64,000 nucleotides of DNA, from positions 1 through 64,000 of the IMG/VR virus record IMGVR_UViG_3300004807_000018; one strand, written 5' to 3'. Source of the stretch: a virus. Both the position numbers and the translations under genes were made by a program. The number at the start of each line of letters is the position of its first letter. The stretch's first letter is position 1. The notes under the pieces were generated by a model, which did not search any database, was not told the origin of the DNA, and saw only the letters and a program-made list of their open reading frames with translations. Shown piece by piece: positions 294 to 52,609 of the stretch.

Positions 294-333
294 ACTTTGC
301 GGCATAGGTCCAAAATGTTGCCTACAAATTGTC

Positions 334-368
334 CATATGCTTATTAATGATGCTATAATAAGCATATG
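334..368 (+). promoter_or_regulatory. Leaderless promoter embedded in an 11-bp inverted repeat
   Basis: TATAAT lies at 354-359 and the ATG of the next gene begins at 366, exactly 6 nt later, so transcription should start at or very near the A of the start codon; no Shine-Dalgarno sequence is present. Perfect inverted arms CATATGCTTAT (334-344) and ATAAGCATATG (358-368) flank a 13-bp spacer and cover the -10 box and start codon, as an operator would. The only -35-like hexamer, TTGTCC at 329-334, is poorly spaced. Confidence 0.7.
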
Positions 369-2181: not shown

Positions 2182-2638
2182 CGAGGTGCCAAGCGCTGGG
2201 GTTGCCTGCGCTTACCGAAACCTCCGTTTAGCTCTGAGCGAGCTAAACGGAGGTTCAATCGACTCGTTTCGCCTGACGCGAGACGGCAGACTGTCCTGCA
2301 TGTGCGAGGTTGCACTCACGAGAGCGCAGCTCATCATCGTGCTGGGGCGCAGCTCCATTGGCATCTCCAGGACCGCCGAAATTCTTAGGCATCTGCCGTC
2401 AGGAGTGATTTGCGTAAGGCTGTGGAGTCTGTCGCAGACGTTTCGGTTCTTCTCAACGTGCCAGCGTGGCTTGTCGAGCTACCTAGGGCAGCGCCGTACC
2501 TTGCAGGTGCCGGACACCATTCACTGCGGAATCGGCTGCAGATTGCCACTCAGACCCCTGACGACAGCGAAGCCCAGGCGCTTGAACCCTGACCGTGTGC
2601 ACCATTCGGAGGCCCTCCTAGATGATCCTGAGGACTGA
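2171..2638 (+). CDS. Hypothetical protein, probably frame-disrupted
   Basis: ATG at 2171 overlaps the end of the previous gene. The first 75 or so residues look protein-like, ending near RTAEILRHLPSG. After about 2400 the open frame becomes poor in sense (Cys/Arg/Ser rich), while the -1 frame carries a convincing stretch from about 2389 to its stop at 2592, including the segment VADVSVLLNVPAWLVELPRA. One continuous product of about 140 aa would need a single -1 shift or a one-base correction near 2390-2410. No canonical slippery heptamer is present. Function unknown. Confidence 0.45.
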   Translation: MKISEVPSAGVACAYRNLRLALSELNGGSIDSFRLTRDGRLSCMCEVALTRAQLIIVLGRSSIGISRTAEILRHLPSGVICVRLWSLSQTFRFFSTCQRGLSSYLGQRRTLQVPDTIHCGIGCRLPLRPLTTAKPRRLNPDRVHHSEALLDDPED

Positions 2639-4091
2639 GCCAATGAAACAGCAGCTCGCGGCAGTGCAGAAGCTGAAGCCGTTCAAGGTGGGCGCTTTGT
2701 TCATGGACATGGGCACAGGGAAATCGCTTGCGGCGATCATGCTCGCGCTCTCAAGGCGAAAGGTGAGGCGCGTTGTGTGGTTTTGCCCCATCACACTCAA
2801 ACCCACCATCGAAGTGGAGATCGAAAAGCACGTCGAAGACGCATCCGTGTACGTCTTCGATGACTCAACGTCGTCGACCCACATTCCGAATGCCTATTGG
2901 TACGTGGTTGGCATCGAGTCGATGAGCAGTAGCGACCGTGTCCGGCTCGCAGTGAAGAAACTGATCGATCCGCACACCATGGTGATCCTAGACGAGTCGG
3001 GCTACTGCGCCAACCACAAAGCTGAGCGCACGCGGTGGATTACGGGACTCTCAAGGCCAGCACTGTACCGCCTGATGCTCACAGGCACACCCATTCAAAA
3101 GGGCATACAGGATCTGTTCAGCCAAATGTTCTTTCTCGACGAAAGGATCCTCGGCTACAAAAGCTTCTACTCGTTTGCGGCGAACCATCTGGAATACCAC
3201 GAGCGCAAACGTGGGCTTGTGGTTAGGGCTCACAACGTGCCGTGGATCTCTGCGAAGATCGCCCCGTACGTGTACCAGGTCACCAAAGCCGAATGCCTTG
3301 ATCTGCCAGAGAAGCTCTTTGAACACCACTGGGTCCGCATGACTTGGGAACAAGAAGAGCTTTACAGCCGGGCAAAAGAAACTCTCTTCGCCGAACTCAT
3401 GGAATGCGACGACTCGGACAAAGAAAGCGTGCTCGTCTACCGGCTCTTCAACGCGTGTCGACAGGCAGCTTGTGGGTTCTGGAACGAATATCCGCGCCTG
3501 AGCGGGCGAAAGGGCGACGTAACCCCTACCGTGCACGAGGCGGAGCATCGGCGGCTCGAAACTCTCGAGTCAGTCCTGAGGCAGATTCCCGAGGACGAGA
3601 AGGTCATCATCTGGGCTGAATGGCTGCGCGACGTCGATGACATCAAAGCCATGATCGCCAGAGTGTACGGAGAAGACCAGGCTAGCGAACTGACCGGCAG
3701 GTACAAAGGCAAAGCTCGCGAGCGTGAGGTTAGCCTCTTCCGTGGCCACAGGCGGTTTCTCGTCGGACTTGCCAGCACAGGCGGCCACGGCTACACATTC
3801 ACTGAGGCTTCTTACGCTGGGTTCTACTCCCTGGGTCTTCAGTACCCACTGTACGTCCAGGCTCAGGACCGAATCCACCGCATCAGCCAGACAAAGCCGT
3901 GCACCTATTTCACGATCAACATGCAAGGCACGATCGACGGCACGCTTATGGACCTCATGTCTCGTAAGCAGAGCATCGCTGAGTACCTGCGAGAAAACAT
4001 AGAATCAATCAAGGACAAGACAACCAGGGTTTCCGCACTTCGGAGACTGATGGGGCAAATCAAGGCAGACGAACAAAAAATAGCATCATGA
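2622..4091 (+). CDS. SNF2-family DEAD/DEAH helicase
   Basis: A 489-aa superfamily 2 ATPase/translocase. Visible motifs are a Q-like PMKQQLAAVQ at the N-terminus, Walker A MGTGKS at residues 30-35, motif II LDESG near 125 (DES in place of DEAH), motif III LTGTP near 155, and motif VI QAQDRIHRISQTK near 405-417, the SNF2 hallmark. GGAGG lies 9 nt before the ATG at 2622. The end overlaps the next gene by ATGA. SNF2 proteins remodel protein-DNA complexes or anneal DNA. With a HARP-like protein upstream and ParB/PAPS-reductase genes downstream, a DNA-processing or DNA-modification role is plausible but unproven. Confidence 0.9.
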   Translation: MILRTEPMKQQLAAVQKLKPFKVGALFMDMGTGKSLAAIMLALSRRKVRRVVWFCPITLKPTIEVEIEKHVEDASVYVFDDSTSSTHIPNAYWYVVGIESMSSSDRVRLAVKKLIDPHTMVILDESGYCANHKAERTRWITGLSRPALYRLMLTGTPIQKGIQDLFSQMFFLDERILGYKSFYSFAANHLEYHERKRGLVVRAHNVPWISAKIAPYVYQVTKAECLDLPEKLFEHHWVRMTWEQEELYSRAKETLFAELMECDDSDKESVLVYRLFNACRQAACGFWNEYPRLSGRKGDVTPTVHEAEHRRLETLESVLRQIPEDEKVIIWAEWLRDVDDIKAMIARVYGEDQASELTGRYKGKAREREVSLFRGHRRFLVGLASTGGHGYTFTEASYAGFYSLGLQYPLYVQAQDRIHRISQTKPCTYFTINMQGTIDGTLMDLMSRKQSIAEYLRENIESIKDKTTRVSALRRLMGQIKADEQKIAS

Positions 4092-4477
4092 GCACATTTG
4101 AACTAAGGATCATCGAGCACGGAGAGCCGGAGCTGTGGCCAATCTTGGGGCCTCTCATGGCGAGTGAGGAAGTAGCCAAAAAGCGTGGCGGCTACCCCAT
4201 GTTCAGCAAGCCCGGCCAGACGTGGATTTTCGCGATCCGTGACGGCACGGTAGTCGGGTTCAACTCGGTTCTGAACGGCAGGCCAGCCAGGATGCTCTAC
4301 GCCTTTGCCTGGGGAGACTCTGAGGTCTACGAAGCTGTAGTCCGCGCTGCTGACTCGATGGCTTCCCCGCTCCAATCAACGGTGCTCAAAACAAACCTGC
4401 CGGTTCTTCTGGGCCTCGGATTCAAGAAGGTCGGCGACAAGGGAGCTCGGTACGCGATCGTCGTAAAGGGTGGCTGA
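4088..4477 (+). CDS. GNAT-like N-acetyltransferase, short form
   Basis: A 129-aa protein starting inside the helicase stop (ATGA). It has the mixed alpha/beta pattern of the GNAT fold: WIFAIRDGTVVGFNSVL (beta2-beta3-like), a helix with VVRAADSMASP, then NLPVLLGLGFKKVGDKGARYAIVV, which matches the usual late LGF-K segment of GNATs. The classic R/QxxGxG/A motif is not clear, so catalysis is uncertain. The stop overlaps the start of the PAPS-reductase gene, implying co-translation. Confidence 0.55.
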   Translation: MSTFELRIIEHGEPELWPILGPLMASEEVAKKRGGYPMFSKPGQTWIFAIRDGTVVGFNSVLNGRPARMLYAFAWGDSEVYEAVVRAADSMASPLQSTVLKTNLPVLLGLGFKKVGDKGARYAIVVKGG

Positions 4478-5793
4478 TGGGCAAAAAGATTTACCTCGAG
4501 GTCGATACGTACACGGCGGTGCAGCGGAGGCTACAGTTCATCTTTGAGCACTTCGACAACGTGTATGTGTCGTTCTCTGGTGGAAAAGACTCCGGGCTGC
4601 TCTTAAACCTCGTGCTCTCGTACATGAGGGCGAACGGCATCACGAAGAAGATCGGCGTGTTCCATCAAGATTTTGAGGCGCAGTACACCGAGACAACACG
4701 CTACGTCGAGCGCGTGATGACTTCGAATCTCGATCTCATTGAACCGTTTTGGGAGTGCCTCCCCAAGAGTTCGAAGACGGCCACGTCGATGTACGAGCAG
4801 TACTGGATTCCGTGGGATCCAGCCAAACAAGACATCTGGGTGCGTCCCATGCCCGAGTTCTACGGGGTGATCAACGTCGACAACAACCCGTTCGACTTCT
4901 TCACCTTTGGCATGATGCAGGAGGACGTCTATCGGGAGTTCGGCCCCTGGTATCACAGGGTAGTTTGCGGATCCAAAGGGCGCACGATCGGGCTCATCGG
5001 AATCCGTTCAGATGAGTCACTGAACCGGTGGAGAGCTGCTTCGACGGAGCGCGAATCTTCATACCTTGGCGCGAACTGGACATCAGGGATCTCCGAGAAC
5101 GTGTGGTGCGGCTACCCACTGTACGACTGGCCAGTTGAGGACATCTGGACAGCCAACGCCAAATTCGGCTACGACTACAACAAACTCTACGACCTCATGC
5201 ATGCCGCAGGGCTGAGCGTTCACGAGATGCGCGTTGCCTCTCCTTTCCACGACTGGGCAATCAGCACCTTGAAGCTGTACCGCGTCCTGGAGCCCAACAT
5301 CTGGGCGCGAATGGTGGGCAGAGTCAACGGAGCGAACTTCACGGCCATCTATGGCGGTACAGATGCTGTCGCGTGGAAGAACATCAAGCTTCCACCGGGC
5401 CACACGTGGAAGACCTACGCCGAGTTTCTTTTGTCGACACTGCCGGAGGACACGCGAAACACTTACCTATCGAAGATCGAGGCCAGCAAGAAGTCTTGGA
5501 AGGTAGGTGGAGCTCGAAGTCCTGAACTAATCGAGCAACTGATTGCCGAGGGAGCGCCTGTCATCCGCACGGGAGAAACCAACAACCGCGGTAAAGGCGC
5601 ACACGAGGTGATCCGGTTTGATGACTACCTGGATGACACGGGCGTCGACGATTTTCGACTTGTTCCGACATGGAAGCGCCTTGTGATTTGCATCCTCAAA
5701 AACGACCATCTTTGCAAATACATGGGCTTCGCTCAGACCAAGAGGGAGGTTGAGCGGAAGAAAGCGATCATGGAGAAGTACGCGAATCTATGA
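4477..5793 (+). CDS. ibrA: IbrA/YbdN-like PAPS-reductase-family protein
   Basis: A 438-aa member of the adenine-nucleotide alpha-hydrolase/PAPS reductase superfamily with a PP-loop SGGKDS at residues 34-39. Further features are GVFHQDFEAQYTET, VVCGSKGRTIGLIGIRSDES, and a C-terminal region ending in KRLVICILKNDHLCKYMGF, the layout of the IbrA/YbdN group. A ParB-like IbrB partner follows three genes later, reproducing the ibrA-ibrB pairing known from enterobacterial chromosomes and phages. The biochemical role of the pair is not established; ATP-dependent activation of a substrate is expected from the PP-loop. Both ends overlap neighbours by 1-4 nt. Confidence 0.85.
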   Translation: MGKKIYLEVDTYTAVQRRLQFIFEHFDNVYVSFSGGKDSGLLLNLVLSYMRANGITKKIGVFHQDFEAQYTETTRYVERVMTSNLDLIEPFWECLPKSSKTATSMYEQYWIPWDPAKQDIWVRPMPEFYGVINVDNNPFDFFTFGMMQEDVYREFGPWYHRVVCGSKGRTIGLIGIRSDESLNRWRAASTERESSYLGANWTSGISENVWCGYPLYDWPVEDIWTANAKFGYDYNKLYDLMHAAGLSVHEMRVASPFHDWAISTLKLYRVLEPNIWARMVGRVNGANFTAIYGGTDAVAWKNIKLPPGHTWKTYAEFLLSTLPEDTRNTYLSKIEASKKSWKVGGARSPELIEQLIAEGAPVIRTGETNNRGKGAHEVIRFDDYLDDTGVDDFRLVPTWKRLVICILKNDHLCKYMGFAQTKREVERKKAIMEKYANL

Positions 5794-6397: not shown

Positions 6398-6964
6398 ATG
6401 CAACAGAACTTATTCAACTCGAACTTTGTGAGCCCTGTATACGCGGTTCAAGCCGTGCCAGTGGAGAAGCTTCGGGCGAACGCGTACAACCCTAACTCTG
6501 TCGCGCCTCCGGAGATGAAGCTCCTCGAACTCTCGATCTGGGAGGACGGGTTCACGATGCCCATCGTTTGCTACAAGCTCCCCGAAGAGGATGCCTACGA
6601 GATCGTGGACGGGTACCACAGGTACACGGTGCTCAAGACAAGTAAGCGCATCTACGAGCGTGAGAATGGCATGGCCCCGATCGTGGTGATAGACAAGCCT
6701 ATCAGTGAGAGAATGGGCTCCACGATCCGGCACAACAGGGCAAGAGGATCGCACTCGATTGAGCTCATGCAGAAGATCGTGGCAGAACTCGTGGAGTCCG
6801 GCATGGGCGACGCGTGGATCATGAGGCACATCGGGATGGATGCAGACGAACTGCTTCGCTTGAAGCAAATCACAGGCCTTGCCGCACTGTTTGCTGATCG
6901 GGACTTTGCAAGCGCCTGGGTTCCAAACATGGAAGAGGCGGACTTTTACGAAGGAAACAAATGA
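6398..6964 (+). CDS. ibrB: IbrB/YbdM-like ParB-domain protein
   Basis: A 188-aa ParB/sulfiredoxin-fold protein. The ParB-type core is visible: PVEKLRANAYNPNSV, then EDGFTMPIVCYKL, then YEIVDGYHRYTVLK, where DGYHR takes the place of the GERRx box of ParB CTPases. A helical C-terminal half contains RGSHSIELMQKIVAELVESG and a likely helix-turn-helix (DAWIMRHIGMDADELLRLKQ). This matches IbrB/YbdM proteins, which pair with IbrA. Biochemical activity is unknown. It lies 2 nt after the GNAT gene and overlaps the next gene by ATGA. Confidence 0.82.
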   Translation: MQQNLFNSNFVSPVYAVQAVPVEKLRANAYNPNSVAPPEMKLLELSIWEDGFTMPIVCYKLPEEDAYEIVDGYHRYTVLKTSKRIYERENGMAPIVVIDKPISERMGSTIRHNRARGSHSIELMQKIVAELVESGMGDAWIMRHIGMDADELLRLKQITGLAALFADRDFASAWVPNMEEADFYEGNK

Positions 6965-7661: not shown

Positions 7662-7919
7662 TCATTCGCCGCGCTGGATCTTGTCAGCCACCCCGACGTA
7701 ACCCGCGATGTCAATCCAAGAATCCTTGTGGCCGGGCGTGTTGCAAAGCCTTGCCAGCTTGACCCCGACCATGCACATGGCCACCTTCTCGGGCGACACG
7801 TCAATCCCTAAGATCACCGACCAAATGGTCGCGATGCGCTGATGGTTCTCGGACGCCGAGCCGTAGTCTTTGGCCCTTGGCCCGTCAATGAGTTCGTTTG
7901 CTTGTTCCAGAAATGTCAT
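7662..7919 (-). CDS. DUF6378-type phage protein
   Basis: An 85-aa protein with the conserved pattern RAKDYGSASENHQRIATIWSV, then VALCM-like VAMCMVGVKLARL, then HKDSWIDIAGYVGVADK. This matches the small phage family DUF6378, found in many tailed phages and distantly like helical nucleotide pyrophosphohydrolases, though catalysis is not shown. Its start overlaps the stop of the metallophosphoesterase gene by ATGA. Confidence 0.8.
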   Translation of the reverse strand: MTFLEQANELIDGPRAKDYGSASENHQRIATIWSVILGIDVSPEKVAMCMVGVKLARLCNTPGHKDSWIDIAGYVGVADKIQRGE

Positions 7920-9331
7920 GCCGCTCCTTTCTTCAAAACTTTGACCCTCGCCTGGTTGAGGTTGAACATAAGCTGTGCAACCGGCCCCTCAGTCGGATGG
8001 AACACACGGGCGATTCCGCTGCGCCGGGATCCCACGTAAAGGTTGTTGTGGTGGTAGGCGTCGACTCCTGCGAGCGATGGCAGTTTGAGAACCTGCGTTC
8101 CCATCACGTCTTTGGCCGTGTAGTGATGCTTGTCGCCGGTCTGCGCTTCCCTGTAGATCGTCCTGCCCAACATTTCGGGCTGCTCGGTCGCCATCACTAA
8201 GGGCAGTTTCTCGACGTTGATCTTATTCCCGTGGACGTGGCAAAACATGTTCTTGTGCCACTCGAAGTACTGCCGGAGGTTAGGTGAATTGATGATTTCG
8301 ACCTCGTTTGCCTTGTGGTAGTGACACTCGATCGCCACGCCAGCGGTGAAGCAACTCAAGGTGTCGTGGTTGCCAGGCAGAAACATGACTGAGACAGGAG
8401 CCACGCTGAGCGCTCGGTCGATGGTCGCGATGAGAAGCTGGATCCCGCGCCGGTAGATCTTGTGGAACCGCCCGTCGTTGTCTTGCGGAGTGCCGGCCGT
8501 CGTCGTGCCAATAATGTTGTCTGAGTTGAAAAAATCGTGACCGATGATGAGATGCATGAGCGAGATCGGATAGACGTTGATCTTGCGCAGAAGGTCCTCG
8601 ACGGCCAGCATCCATATCTGCTCGGCTATCGCTAGATCGTAGTCGTTACCCACCTCTTCGGCCCAGCAGAGCTTGCCTAGGTGAATGTCAGTCAGGTTGA
8701 GGATCGCCAGGTGCCCTTCATCCTCAAAGGGTTCGCGCTGCAGATCGAAATAGACAGGCGCGTGGGCTTTGCACTCGTCAATCAGCCATTGGAAGTCTTC
8801 ACGGTCGCTGGCTGCCTGTTTGCGATAGACAAAGGTCGCCTCGATCTTCCATTGAGGCGTGATTTGAACGTCGTGTTGCGCGTTCTTGGACGCCTGTTCC
8901 CACTGGCCGCACTTCCAAGTCTTGACCTCCCAGACGGTAAGGTCTGCCTCGCAGTACTCAAGAAGCTCCTCAAGAGTTCGGATACGCTTGTTGACAACCG
9001 CCGAGAACTTCCACTCGTCTTCCGAGAATGTTTCGTTGCGCCACTCTTTGGGCTGATCGTCCTGCTCGCTGAGCGCCAACGATTCCGCTTCTTTGGCCAG
9101 TCGCTCGAACTCGGCCTCCTCTTCTAGGCTGAACGACCTTTTTAGGCTGTACAAGCATTGAAAGCCTTCGCGCCGGTCAATACGGTTTAGGTTCTGGGCA
9201 ATCGAATCGAGCGACCGACCAGGGAAAAGCGCGTGCAGCCGATCCGCAGCAGCCTTCTTTCCTTTAATGTTGGCGCACGGGCGCAAAAGGCGCAGTCGCC
9301 TTATCTCTGCTTCTGAATAGTTCGGACCCAT
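7916..9331 (-). CDS. Metallophosphoesterase with N-terminal HTH-like region
   Basis: A 471-aa protein. Residues about 1-50 (YSEAEIRRLRLL ... GRSLDSIAQNLNRI) look like a Myb/homeodomain-like helical unit. From about 208 the calcineurin-like metal-binding motifs appear in order: LNLTDIHLG (DxH), IIGHDFFNSD, FLPGNHD, and HVHGNK. It therefore should be a two-metal phosphoesterase or nuclease. Homologues occur in many phages and the substrate is unknown. AGGAGG precedes the ATG, just after a terminator that insulates it from the tail operon. Confidence 0.85.
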   Translation of the reverse strand: MGPNYSEAEIRRLRLLRPCANIKGKKAAADRLHALFPGRSLDSIAQNLNRIDRREGFQCLYSLKRSFSLEEEAEFERLAKEAESLALSEQDDQPKEWRNETFSEDEWKFSAVVNKRIRTLEELLEYCEADLTVWEVKTWKCGQWEQASKNAQHDVQITPQWKIEATFVYRKQAASDREDFQWLIDECKAHAPVYFDLQREPFEDEGHLAILNLTDIHLGKLCWAEEVGNDYDLAIAEQIWMLAVEDLLRKINVYPISLMHLIIGHDFFNSDNIIGTTTAGTPQDNDGRFHKIYRRGIQLLIATIDRALSVAPVSVMFLPGNHDTLSCFTAGVAIECHYHKANEVEIINSPNLRQYFEWHKNMFCHVHGNKINVEKLPLVMATEQPEMLGRTIYREAQTGDKHHYTAKDVMGTQVLKLPSLAGVDAYHHNNLYVGSRRSGIARVFHPTEGPVAQLMFNLNQARVKVLKKGAA

Positions 9332-23611: not shown

Positions 23612-23655
23612 GGCACCAGATCATTTTCCCGGCGCCGGGAAAATGATCTGGTGCC
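23612..23655. repeat. Perfect 44-bp palindrome (copy 1 of a 30-bp palindromic repeat)
   Basis: Both 22-base halves are exact reverse complements, centred between 23633 and 23634 at GGC|GCC. The inner 30 bp (23619-23648) starts GATCATTTTCCCGG and shares its ends and length with the repeat at 23679-23708. It is non-coding; ORFs crossing it are artefacts of palindromy. Confidence 0.8.
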
Positions 23656-23678
23656 AGTCGCCGAGCCTGTCCGTGGCG

Positions 23679-23708
23679 GATCATCTTGCTGGTGTCAGCA
23701 AGATGATC
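23679..23708. repeat. 30-bp palindromic repeat, copy 2, covarying with copy 1
   Basis: GATCATCTTGCT / AGCAAGATGATC arms around GGTGTC. Compared with copy 1 it differs at eight positions, and six of these form three compensated base pairs (7:24 T-A to C-G, 10:21 C-G to G-C, 12:19 C-G to T-A). The stem is extended by TGGC/GCCA with one bulged base. Confidence 0.75.
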
Positions 23709-24287: not shown

Positions 24288-24325
24288 ATTATACACGTAT
24301 ATAAACGTATTCATGCGTGTATAAT
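24288..24325. promoter_or_regulatory. Divergent promoter pair formed by one inverted repeat
   Basis: ATTATACACG (24288-24297) and CGTGTATAAT (24316-24325) are perfect inverted arms 18 bp apart. The right arm carries TATAAT at 24320-24325, 6 nt before the ATG at 24332; the left arm carries the same -10 box for the minus strand. Between them ACGTAT occurs twice. A repressor binding here would control both genes; the adjacent ribbon-helix-helix protein is the natural candidate. Confidence 0.7.
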
Positions 24326-24331
24326 GCTTTT

Positions 24332-24553
24332 ATGAGCGATATGACGCTAAAATCATCCATGCCTCGGAAGGCCACGGGAATCAAGCGAAAGCCAGTCACT
24401 GTCACCCTAGACACGGACACAAGAACCAAGCTTGAATTTGTCGCCTCCGAATACGGGTATAGCTTGAGTCTGTTCCTTGAACGAGCCGGCTTGTGGTACG
24501 CCAAAGAGATCGAAAAGGACCCTTCTAAACTGCGCCAGCCTGCGGAAGACTGA
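24332..24553 (+). CDS. Ribbon-helix-helix-like regulator, leaderless
   Basis: A 73-aa protein starting MSDMTLKSSMPRKATG. The start is set by TATAAT-N6-ATG, with no ribosome binding site. KRKPVTVTLDTDTRTKLEFVASEYGYSLSLFLERAG reads as a beta strand followed by two helices, the Arc/CopG-like fold. It lies divergent from paralogue B across the operator-like repeat and is likely to autoregulate. Confidence 0.7.
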   Translation: MSDMTLKSSMPRKATGIKRKPVTVTLDTDTRTKLEFVASEYGYSLSLFLERAGLWYAKEIEKDPSKLRQPAED

Positions 24554-52247: not shown

Positions 52248-52609
52248 ACACTCCCGAGTCTCGAAGCAGGATCCTCGCGTTCGAATCCTCGTGCGCAGTT
52301 CCACGCGGCGAAAAGTTCCTCAGCGATCAAGAGTTCAAAACGCATGTAGCGTCTAGGCTTTCGGAGCGGCCAACAGATACCGCGGCTAAATCCGACCGAC
52401 CCGATATCTCACCTAAAATGAAGCGAATTCCAATCACACTCACGGACTTTGAGCATGCACGGCTCAAGGCCATCAGCCAGGCTCAAGGCATGTCTATGAA
52501 CACAATCATGCGCCTGGCTTTCGAGCAGGCCCACCCACTCCAGAAAGAAACGAAAGCGACGGGCGGAATTGAAAGCACGATCCGGCGCGAAGAAGAGCTG
52601 GCCCATTAG
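52244..52609 (+). CDS. CopG/RHH-like C-terminal protein
   Basis: A 121-aa protein starting TTG. Residues 59-95 (KRIPITLTDFEHARLKAISQ, then MNTIMRLAF) look like a ribbon-helix-helix DNA-binding unit, preceded by a loosely structured N-terminus. Last gene of the plus-strand operon, facing the DnaB operon. Confidence 0.6.
   Translation: MNTPESRSRILAFESSCAVPRGEKFLSDQEFKTHVASRLSERPTDTAAKSDRPDISPKMKRIPITLTDFEHARLKAISQAQGMSMNTIMRLAFEQAHPLQKETKATGGIESTIRREEELAH

Follow-up and report, generated by a model that had tools for sequence, protein, structure and literature searches.

A perfect inverted repeat at positions 334–368 of this virus record (site 1) is probably a repressor operator, placed over the extended −10 element of a leaderless promoter that would serve a cluster comprising ORF1, ORF2 and the genes for a helicase, a PAPS reductase and a ParB protein. 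The case is built on the palindrome itself, on the geometry of the −10 box and ATG within it, and on the same layout at two more promoters. The window analyzed consists of bases 1–64,000 of an 82,169-bp virus record, and counts given as record-wide refer to all of the latter.

The two arms of site 1, CATATGCTTATTA at 334–346 and TAATAAGCATATG at 356–368 (+ strand), are 13 bp long and 100% complementary; they flank an asymmetric 9-nt spacer (ATGATGCTA, 347–355), and the right arm terminates on the ATG of ORF1. An earlier, sequence-only reading had claimed a 35-bp palindrome at 334–368, and the sequence is found there exactly as described; its inverted repeat stands, with the correction that arms of 11 bp set 13 bp apart leave two inner pairs uncounted and that the true geometry is 13-9-13. 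At the base composition of the genome, perfect inverted repeats of this kind (arm at least 13 bp, loop at most 20) are expected about 0.033 times per whole 82 kb. In 4,000 mononucleotide shuffles of 300–380 the best arm was 10 bp and none (0/4,000) reached 11 bp, and across eight Markov-1 simulations of the whole record the longest arm was 11 bp. Site 1 is not unique as a long palindrome, the record holding six inverted repeats with arms of at least 13 bp; it is the sole member of those six that covers a TATAAT-like −10 box, and its symmetry over the core promoter exceeds chance.

This box, at 354–359 (+ strand) and one of just six TATAAT hexamers in the 82 kb, extends from the spacer into the right arm and has TGC in front (i.e., an extended −10). 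AAGCAT separates it from the ATG at 366–368, which begins at the seventh base past the box, a spacing that suits a leaderless mRNA. The palindrome thus does cover both the −10 box and the start codon, as had been proposed. The ATG at 366 is the earliest start codon in the ORF1 frame, and ORF1 (SD score 0) lacks the Shine-Dalgarno-like motif seen ahead of many other genes in the record, so that both marks of a leaderless gene, a −10 box at leaderless distance and no Shine-Dalgarno, are found here. By eye, a weak −35 candidate, TTGTCC at 329–334 (+ strand), lies at a 19-nt spacing; a strict sigma-70 consensus scan found no promoter at site 1, the −35 being poor. The simplest reading of these elements is a predicted transcript start at A366 from site 1’s own promoter. 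Upstream, the record's left edge truncates a + strand frame whose stop is at 217, and between that frame and ORF1 lies a terminator-like hairpin (262–289; RNA fold −22.5 kcal/mol, z −3.8) with a U-run (TTTT), together spanning 262–293 on the + strand and missed by a consensus scan. Calling ORF1 the first left-arm gene therefore needs the caveat that this cut frame ends ahead of it, followed by the terminator-like hairpin.

Five of the six TATAAT hexamers found on both strands of the whole record lie within three palindromes, namely site 1 (334–368), site 2 (24288–24325) and site 3 (79402–79429); the sixth (66134) is downstream of a cI-like gene. Record-wide, every TATAAT-N6-ATG start with an open frame of at least 40 codons falls inside these palindromes (3/3), and the TAWNAT hexamers with an inverted-repeat score of at least 10 (7/40) are all at sites 1, 2 and 3; among called genes, 2 of 85 reach this score within −40 to +3 (ORF1 and 7916–9331). 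Site 2, a putative second leaderless-type operator-promoter on the + strand (ATTATACACG...CGTGTATAAT, TATAAT at 24320–24325), has 13-bp arms with one mismatch (ATTATACACGTAT-N12-ATGCGTGTATAAT), and site 3 has 14-bp arms with one mismatch (TAATTATACGCGAT-ATCGTGTATAATTA). The motif CGTGTATAAT is common to sites 2 and 3, and 13 of 2,000 shuffles were as good as the likeness between their arms, as expected if these are operators of one protein. Site 1 resembles neither (1,351 and 1,161 of 2,000 shuffles as good); with the layout in common and the recognition sequence different, two binding proteins are likely. The gene caller retained ORF1 and dropped the genes at sites 2 and 3 (73 and 83 aa), and the starts of these two genes are accordingly less certain. 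The anatomy of site 1 and this recurrence back the proposal of an operator over a leaderless promoter. The coincidence of arm and ATG, which the sequence-only reading had taken to be functional, is a different matter: the arm of site 2 ends with the −10 box and that of site 3 ends 4 bp before the ATG, so it is probably incidental that the site 1 arm extends onto the ATG. Separately, site 2 with its flank (24288–24335) carries TATAAT on both strands before an RHH-like gene and is a possible divergent autoregulated promoter, and site 3 (record 79402–79437, L167:16402–16437) has the integrase att-like region on one side and two small genes on the other.

In the proposed mechanism, a dimeric (or tetrameric) transcriptional repressor would bind the site 1 palindrome, whose two 13-bp half-sites, 22 bp apart centre to centre or about two helical turns, would face the same side of the DNA. 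By masking the start point as well as the extended −10 (TGC TATAAT), the bound repressor would shut out RNA polymerase. The mRNA probably begins at the A of the ATG, and repression would silence ORF1 and, via read-through, the ORF2-helicase-PAPS reductase-ParB cluster. ORF1 (P0001; 366–788, + strand) encodes an orphan protein of 140 aa with an unusable structure model (pLDDT 44.5). It is followed on the same strand, in tight packing, by ORF2 (886–2181, scanned as 766–2181; phrog_16123-like), the DNA helicase gene (2622–4091), the gene for the PAPS reductase-like protein (4477–5793) and, beside the latter, that for the ParB-like protein (6398–6964).

As to which protein might bind, RHH-like genes lie at 24332–24553, 52424–52531 and 81817–82008, none of them tied to site 1 by any evidence. 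The first (+ strand, 73 aa, dropped by the gene caller) starts at the seventh base past the site 2 TATAAT; its protein model is modest (pLDDT 62.7) with RHH-type beta-alpha-alpha order, and the solved structures ranked highest by Foldseek were mostly RHH proteins, at E values of at least 0.32, none significant. Pfam gave no match for this protein or for that of 81817–82008, which is RHH-like by eye, and Pfam RHH_1 gave just one sub-cutoff match across the record, at 52424–52531. A second copy of the site 1 half-site, with at most one mismatch, is absent from the 82 kb, and since the half-site occurs once, neither a regulon nor an autoregulated partner gene can be named. Site 1 does not fit as the operator of the phage’s own autoregulated RHH protein (Arc/antitoxin-like), the palindrome before the 24332 gene having other arms and the half-site occurring nowhere else. 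We rejected it as a cI-like immunity operator set, which would call for multiple copies where there is the one at 334–368.

With no other copy of site 1 in the phage, the phage need not itself encode the binding protein, and ORF1 could be timed by a positive regulator or by a host regulator (e.g., a stress or SOS-type repressor) instead of a phage repressor. The cI-like gene at 65350–66054, which is flanked by different repeats (TTGCACC), is consistent with such a reading, which we nevertheless hold to be unlikely. Activators normally bind upstream of the −35, not over the −10, and the position of site 1 over the −10 argues against one acting here.

Control at the level of translation, in which a transcript from an upstream promoter would fold and hide the ORF1 start codon, draws on the RNA fold of 325–375 (−16.3 kcal/mol, z −4.0), where the AUG lies within a 13-bp stem. 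We rejected it as very improbable: TATAAT sits within the hairpin at leaderless distance, the terminator-like hairpin separates site 1 from the upstream frame, and the palindromes at sites 2 and 3 end before the ATG. It is about as hard to credit that the repeat arose by chance, or by selection on something else, with no protein bound. The region is AT-rich (GC 27% in 325–365) and conservation lends no support, which fits such an origin; the local shuffles, none of which reaches 11 bp, and the repetition of the layout at three promoters of one type speak against it. Least probable of all is a lox-like 13-9-13 recombination core of a phage tyrosine recombinase, for which the geometry (near the 13-8-13 of loxP) and the one PF00589 integrase gene (77747–79123) could be cited, and which we rejected because the spacer is 9 nt and not the 6–8 bp of such cores, the integrase gene is followed by an att-like region of its own, in which four TTGTCGTAAA repeats lie within 79115–79337, family searches gave neither a second tyrosine recombinase nor a serine recombinase match, and the −10 and ATG layout would be left unexplained. 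An att site was rejected too, and a parS site was considered, the ParB-like protein being encoded beside the PAPS reductase-like one.

Leaderless promoters overlapped by operators are already established, and what seems unusual here is their threefold use in one phage. A C protein controls its own gene through a C-box, and site 1 differs from C-protein operons in being without demonstrable autoregulation. The C-protein operons of restriction-modification systems have leaderless transcripts (PMC4824078) and would resemble site 1 in joining a regulated gene to a leaderless transcript. The acuR-acuI-dddL transcript of Rhodobacter sphaeroides begins at the AUG, the inverted repeat TAATAGAC-n6-GTCTATTA overlaps its promoter, and mutation of the operator makes expression constitutive (PMC3017554). 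The likeness to the proposed site 1 operator lies in an inverted repeat over a leaderless-type promoter of the first gene of an operon, the later acuR-operon genes having Shine-Dalgarno sites; the difference is that the first gene there encodes a TetR-family repressor and the operator mutations were tested, whereas ORF1 is an orphan and the 13-bp arms at its start reach the ATG. The statement that a leaderless gene has no space for an operator apart from its start was too strong, given that in acuR the 8-bp inverted repeat lies ahead of the ATG, where it overlaps the promoter (PMC3017554). The leaderless gene paaR2 of a cryptic prophage has palindromes over its promoter and, like lambda cI P_RM, is comparable to the proposed site 1 operator in that palindromic operators overlap the promoter of a phage-derived leaderless gene (PMC8630535). 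Unlike site 1, a single palindrome with no divergent gene seen, both have 18-bp operators in spaced sets that lie between divergent genes.

Relatives were sought in viral contigs and phage records, in searches that may omit records very close to this phage, and no close relative covering site 1 was found among them. For ORF1, seven stretches of viral contigs fit a pattern, none of them confirmed, and phage records gave no relative; the exact site 1 arms occur in 0 viral contigs, a distant blastn of 290–410 gave chance-level matches only, and a terminase scan and an integrase scan gave two distant loci and none, respectively. One record of 33,042 bp (L087) is near-identical over the compared overlap, shows no change in the −10/ATG part of site 2, and does not reach site 1. 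A looser arm pattern picked out four viral contigs, three without promoter context and the fourth (L027/L204, IMGVR_UViG_3300033417_000002) with a promoter like that of site 1: TATAAT-N6-ATG is enclosed there by the GCATATG arms of a 35-bp palindrome, CTGCATATGCA-N13-TGCATATGCAG, and the phage encodes a related helicase. This promoter differs from site 1 in arm spacing, in having TTGACA and a further ATG led by a Shine-Dalgarno, and in its position after the helicase, and the likeness is probably convergent.

Distant relatives keep the ORF2-helicase-PAPS-ParB order without the site 1 arms. In one of them (L010) a perfect palindrome of 38 bp, its arms 17 bp long, is centred on TATAAT, 12 nt before the ORF2 homologue (E 7e-18), and in another (L180) a perfect palindrome with 18-bp arms (381–422) stops one base short of the ORF2 homologue's ATG (E 2e-14); both lie over a −10-like box and are unrelated in sequence to site 1. 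This suggests, from sequence comparison, that the ORF2-helicase cluster may sometimes be under operator control, with fast operator turnover. The N-terminus of the L180 ORF2 homologue is, as an aside, RHH-like by eye. A palindrome over a −10 near a start was seen at 8 of 103 relative loci upstream of the helicase and 3 of 103 downstream, a weak difference in which duplicates are counted (in the upstream count L010/L090 represent one contig and L122/L134 a single site; in the downstream count L030/L195 represent a single site). Across 166 related loci, an inverted-repeat score of at least 10 was reached by just 1 of 149 TATAAT-like leaderless starts (L027), as against 6 of 400 control hexamers, so the association of leaderless starts with palindromes is a feature of this phage and not of the group. 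Other palindromes with 16- to 17-bp arms, beginning GTACCAAATA... and followed by a TATCTTTGCA stretch, lie upstream of the helicase at L162:264–304, L154:181–220 and L157:180–219, and are possibly operators of another phage group.

The integrase gene and the cI-like gene, the latter with a sub-cutoff HTH match, suggest a temperate phage. For the phage as a whole we would venture, as a tentative extension of the operator reading of site 1, that several transcription units may be run by one device, a leaderless promoter with its −10 inside a palindrome that serves as operator; the operators would be of two types (sites 2 and 3; site 1 alone), and two repressors, one of them probably the 24332 RHH-like protein, would divide early-gene control outside a probable cI-like switch at 65–66 kb. 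If this were true, one probably temperate phage would repeatedly use leaderless, operator-embedded promoters, for a replication-type cluster and for a regulator gene, and TATAAT-N6-ATG within a palindrome, rare in the distant relatives searched, could offer a simple signature for master promoters in uncultured phages.

Other features were seen in passing. TTGCACC repeats flank the cI-like gene within record 65220–66140 (L167:2220–3140), a stretch that also contains the sixth TATAAT and is probably an immunity region that has operators of its own. The four TTGTCGTAAA repeats form two pairs at record 79115–79340 (L167:16115–16340), a likely integrase attP, and surround sequence that, judged by eye, resembles a tRNA-Gly 3′ end, where ARAGORN calls no complete tRNA. 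The exact tRNA-like fragment, used to seek the host, gave 0 matches; helicase relatives, sought for the same purpose, came from 26 loci in many phyla, the best being 47% at near-full length and 54% over one fragment. At 23612–23708, finally, a perfect 44-bp palindrome (22-bp arms) is followed by a second repeat with 13-bp arms, and GATCAT is present in both.
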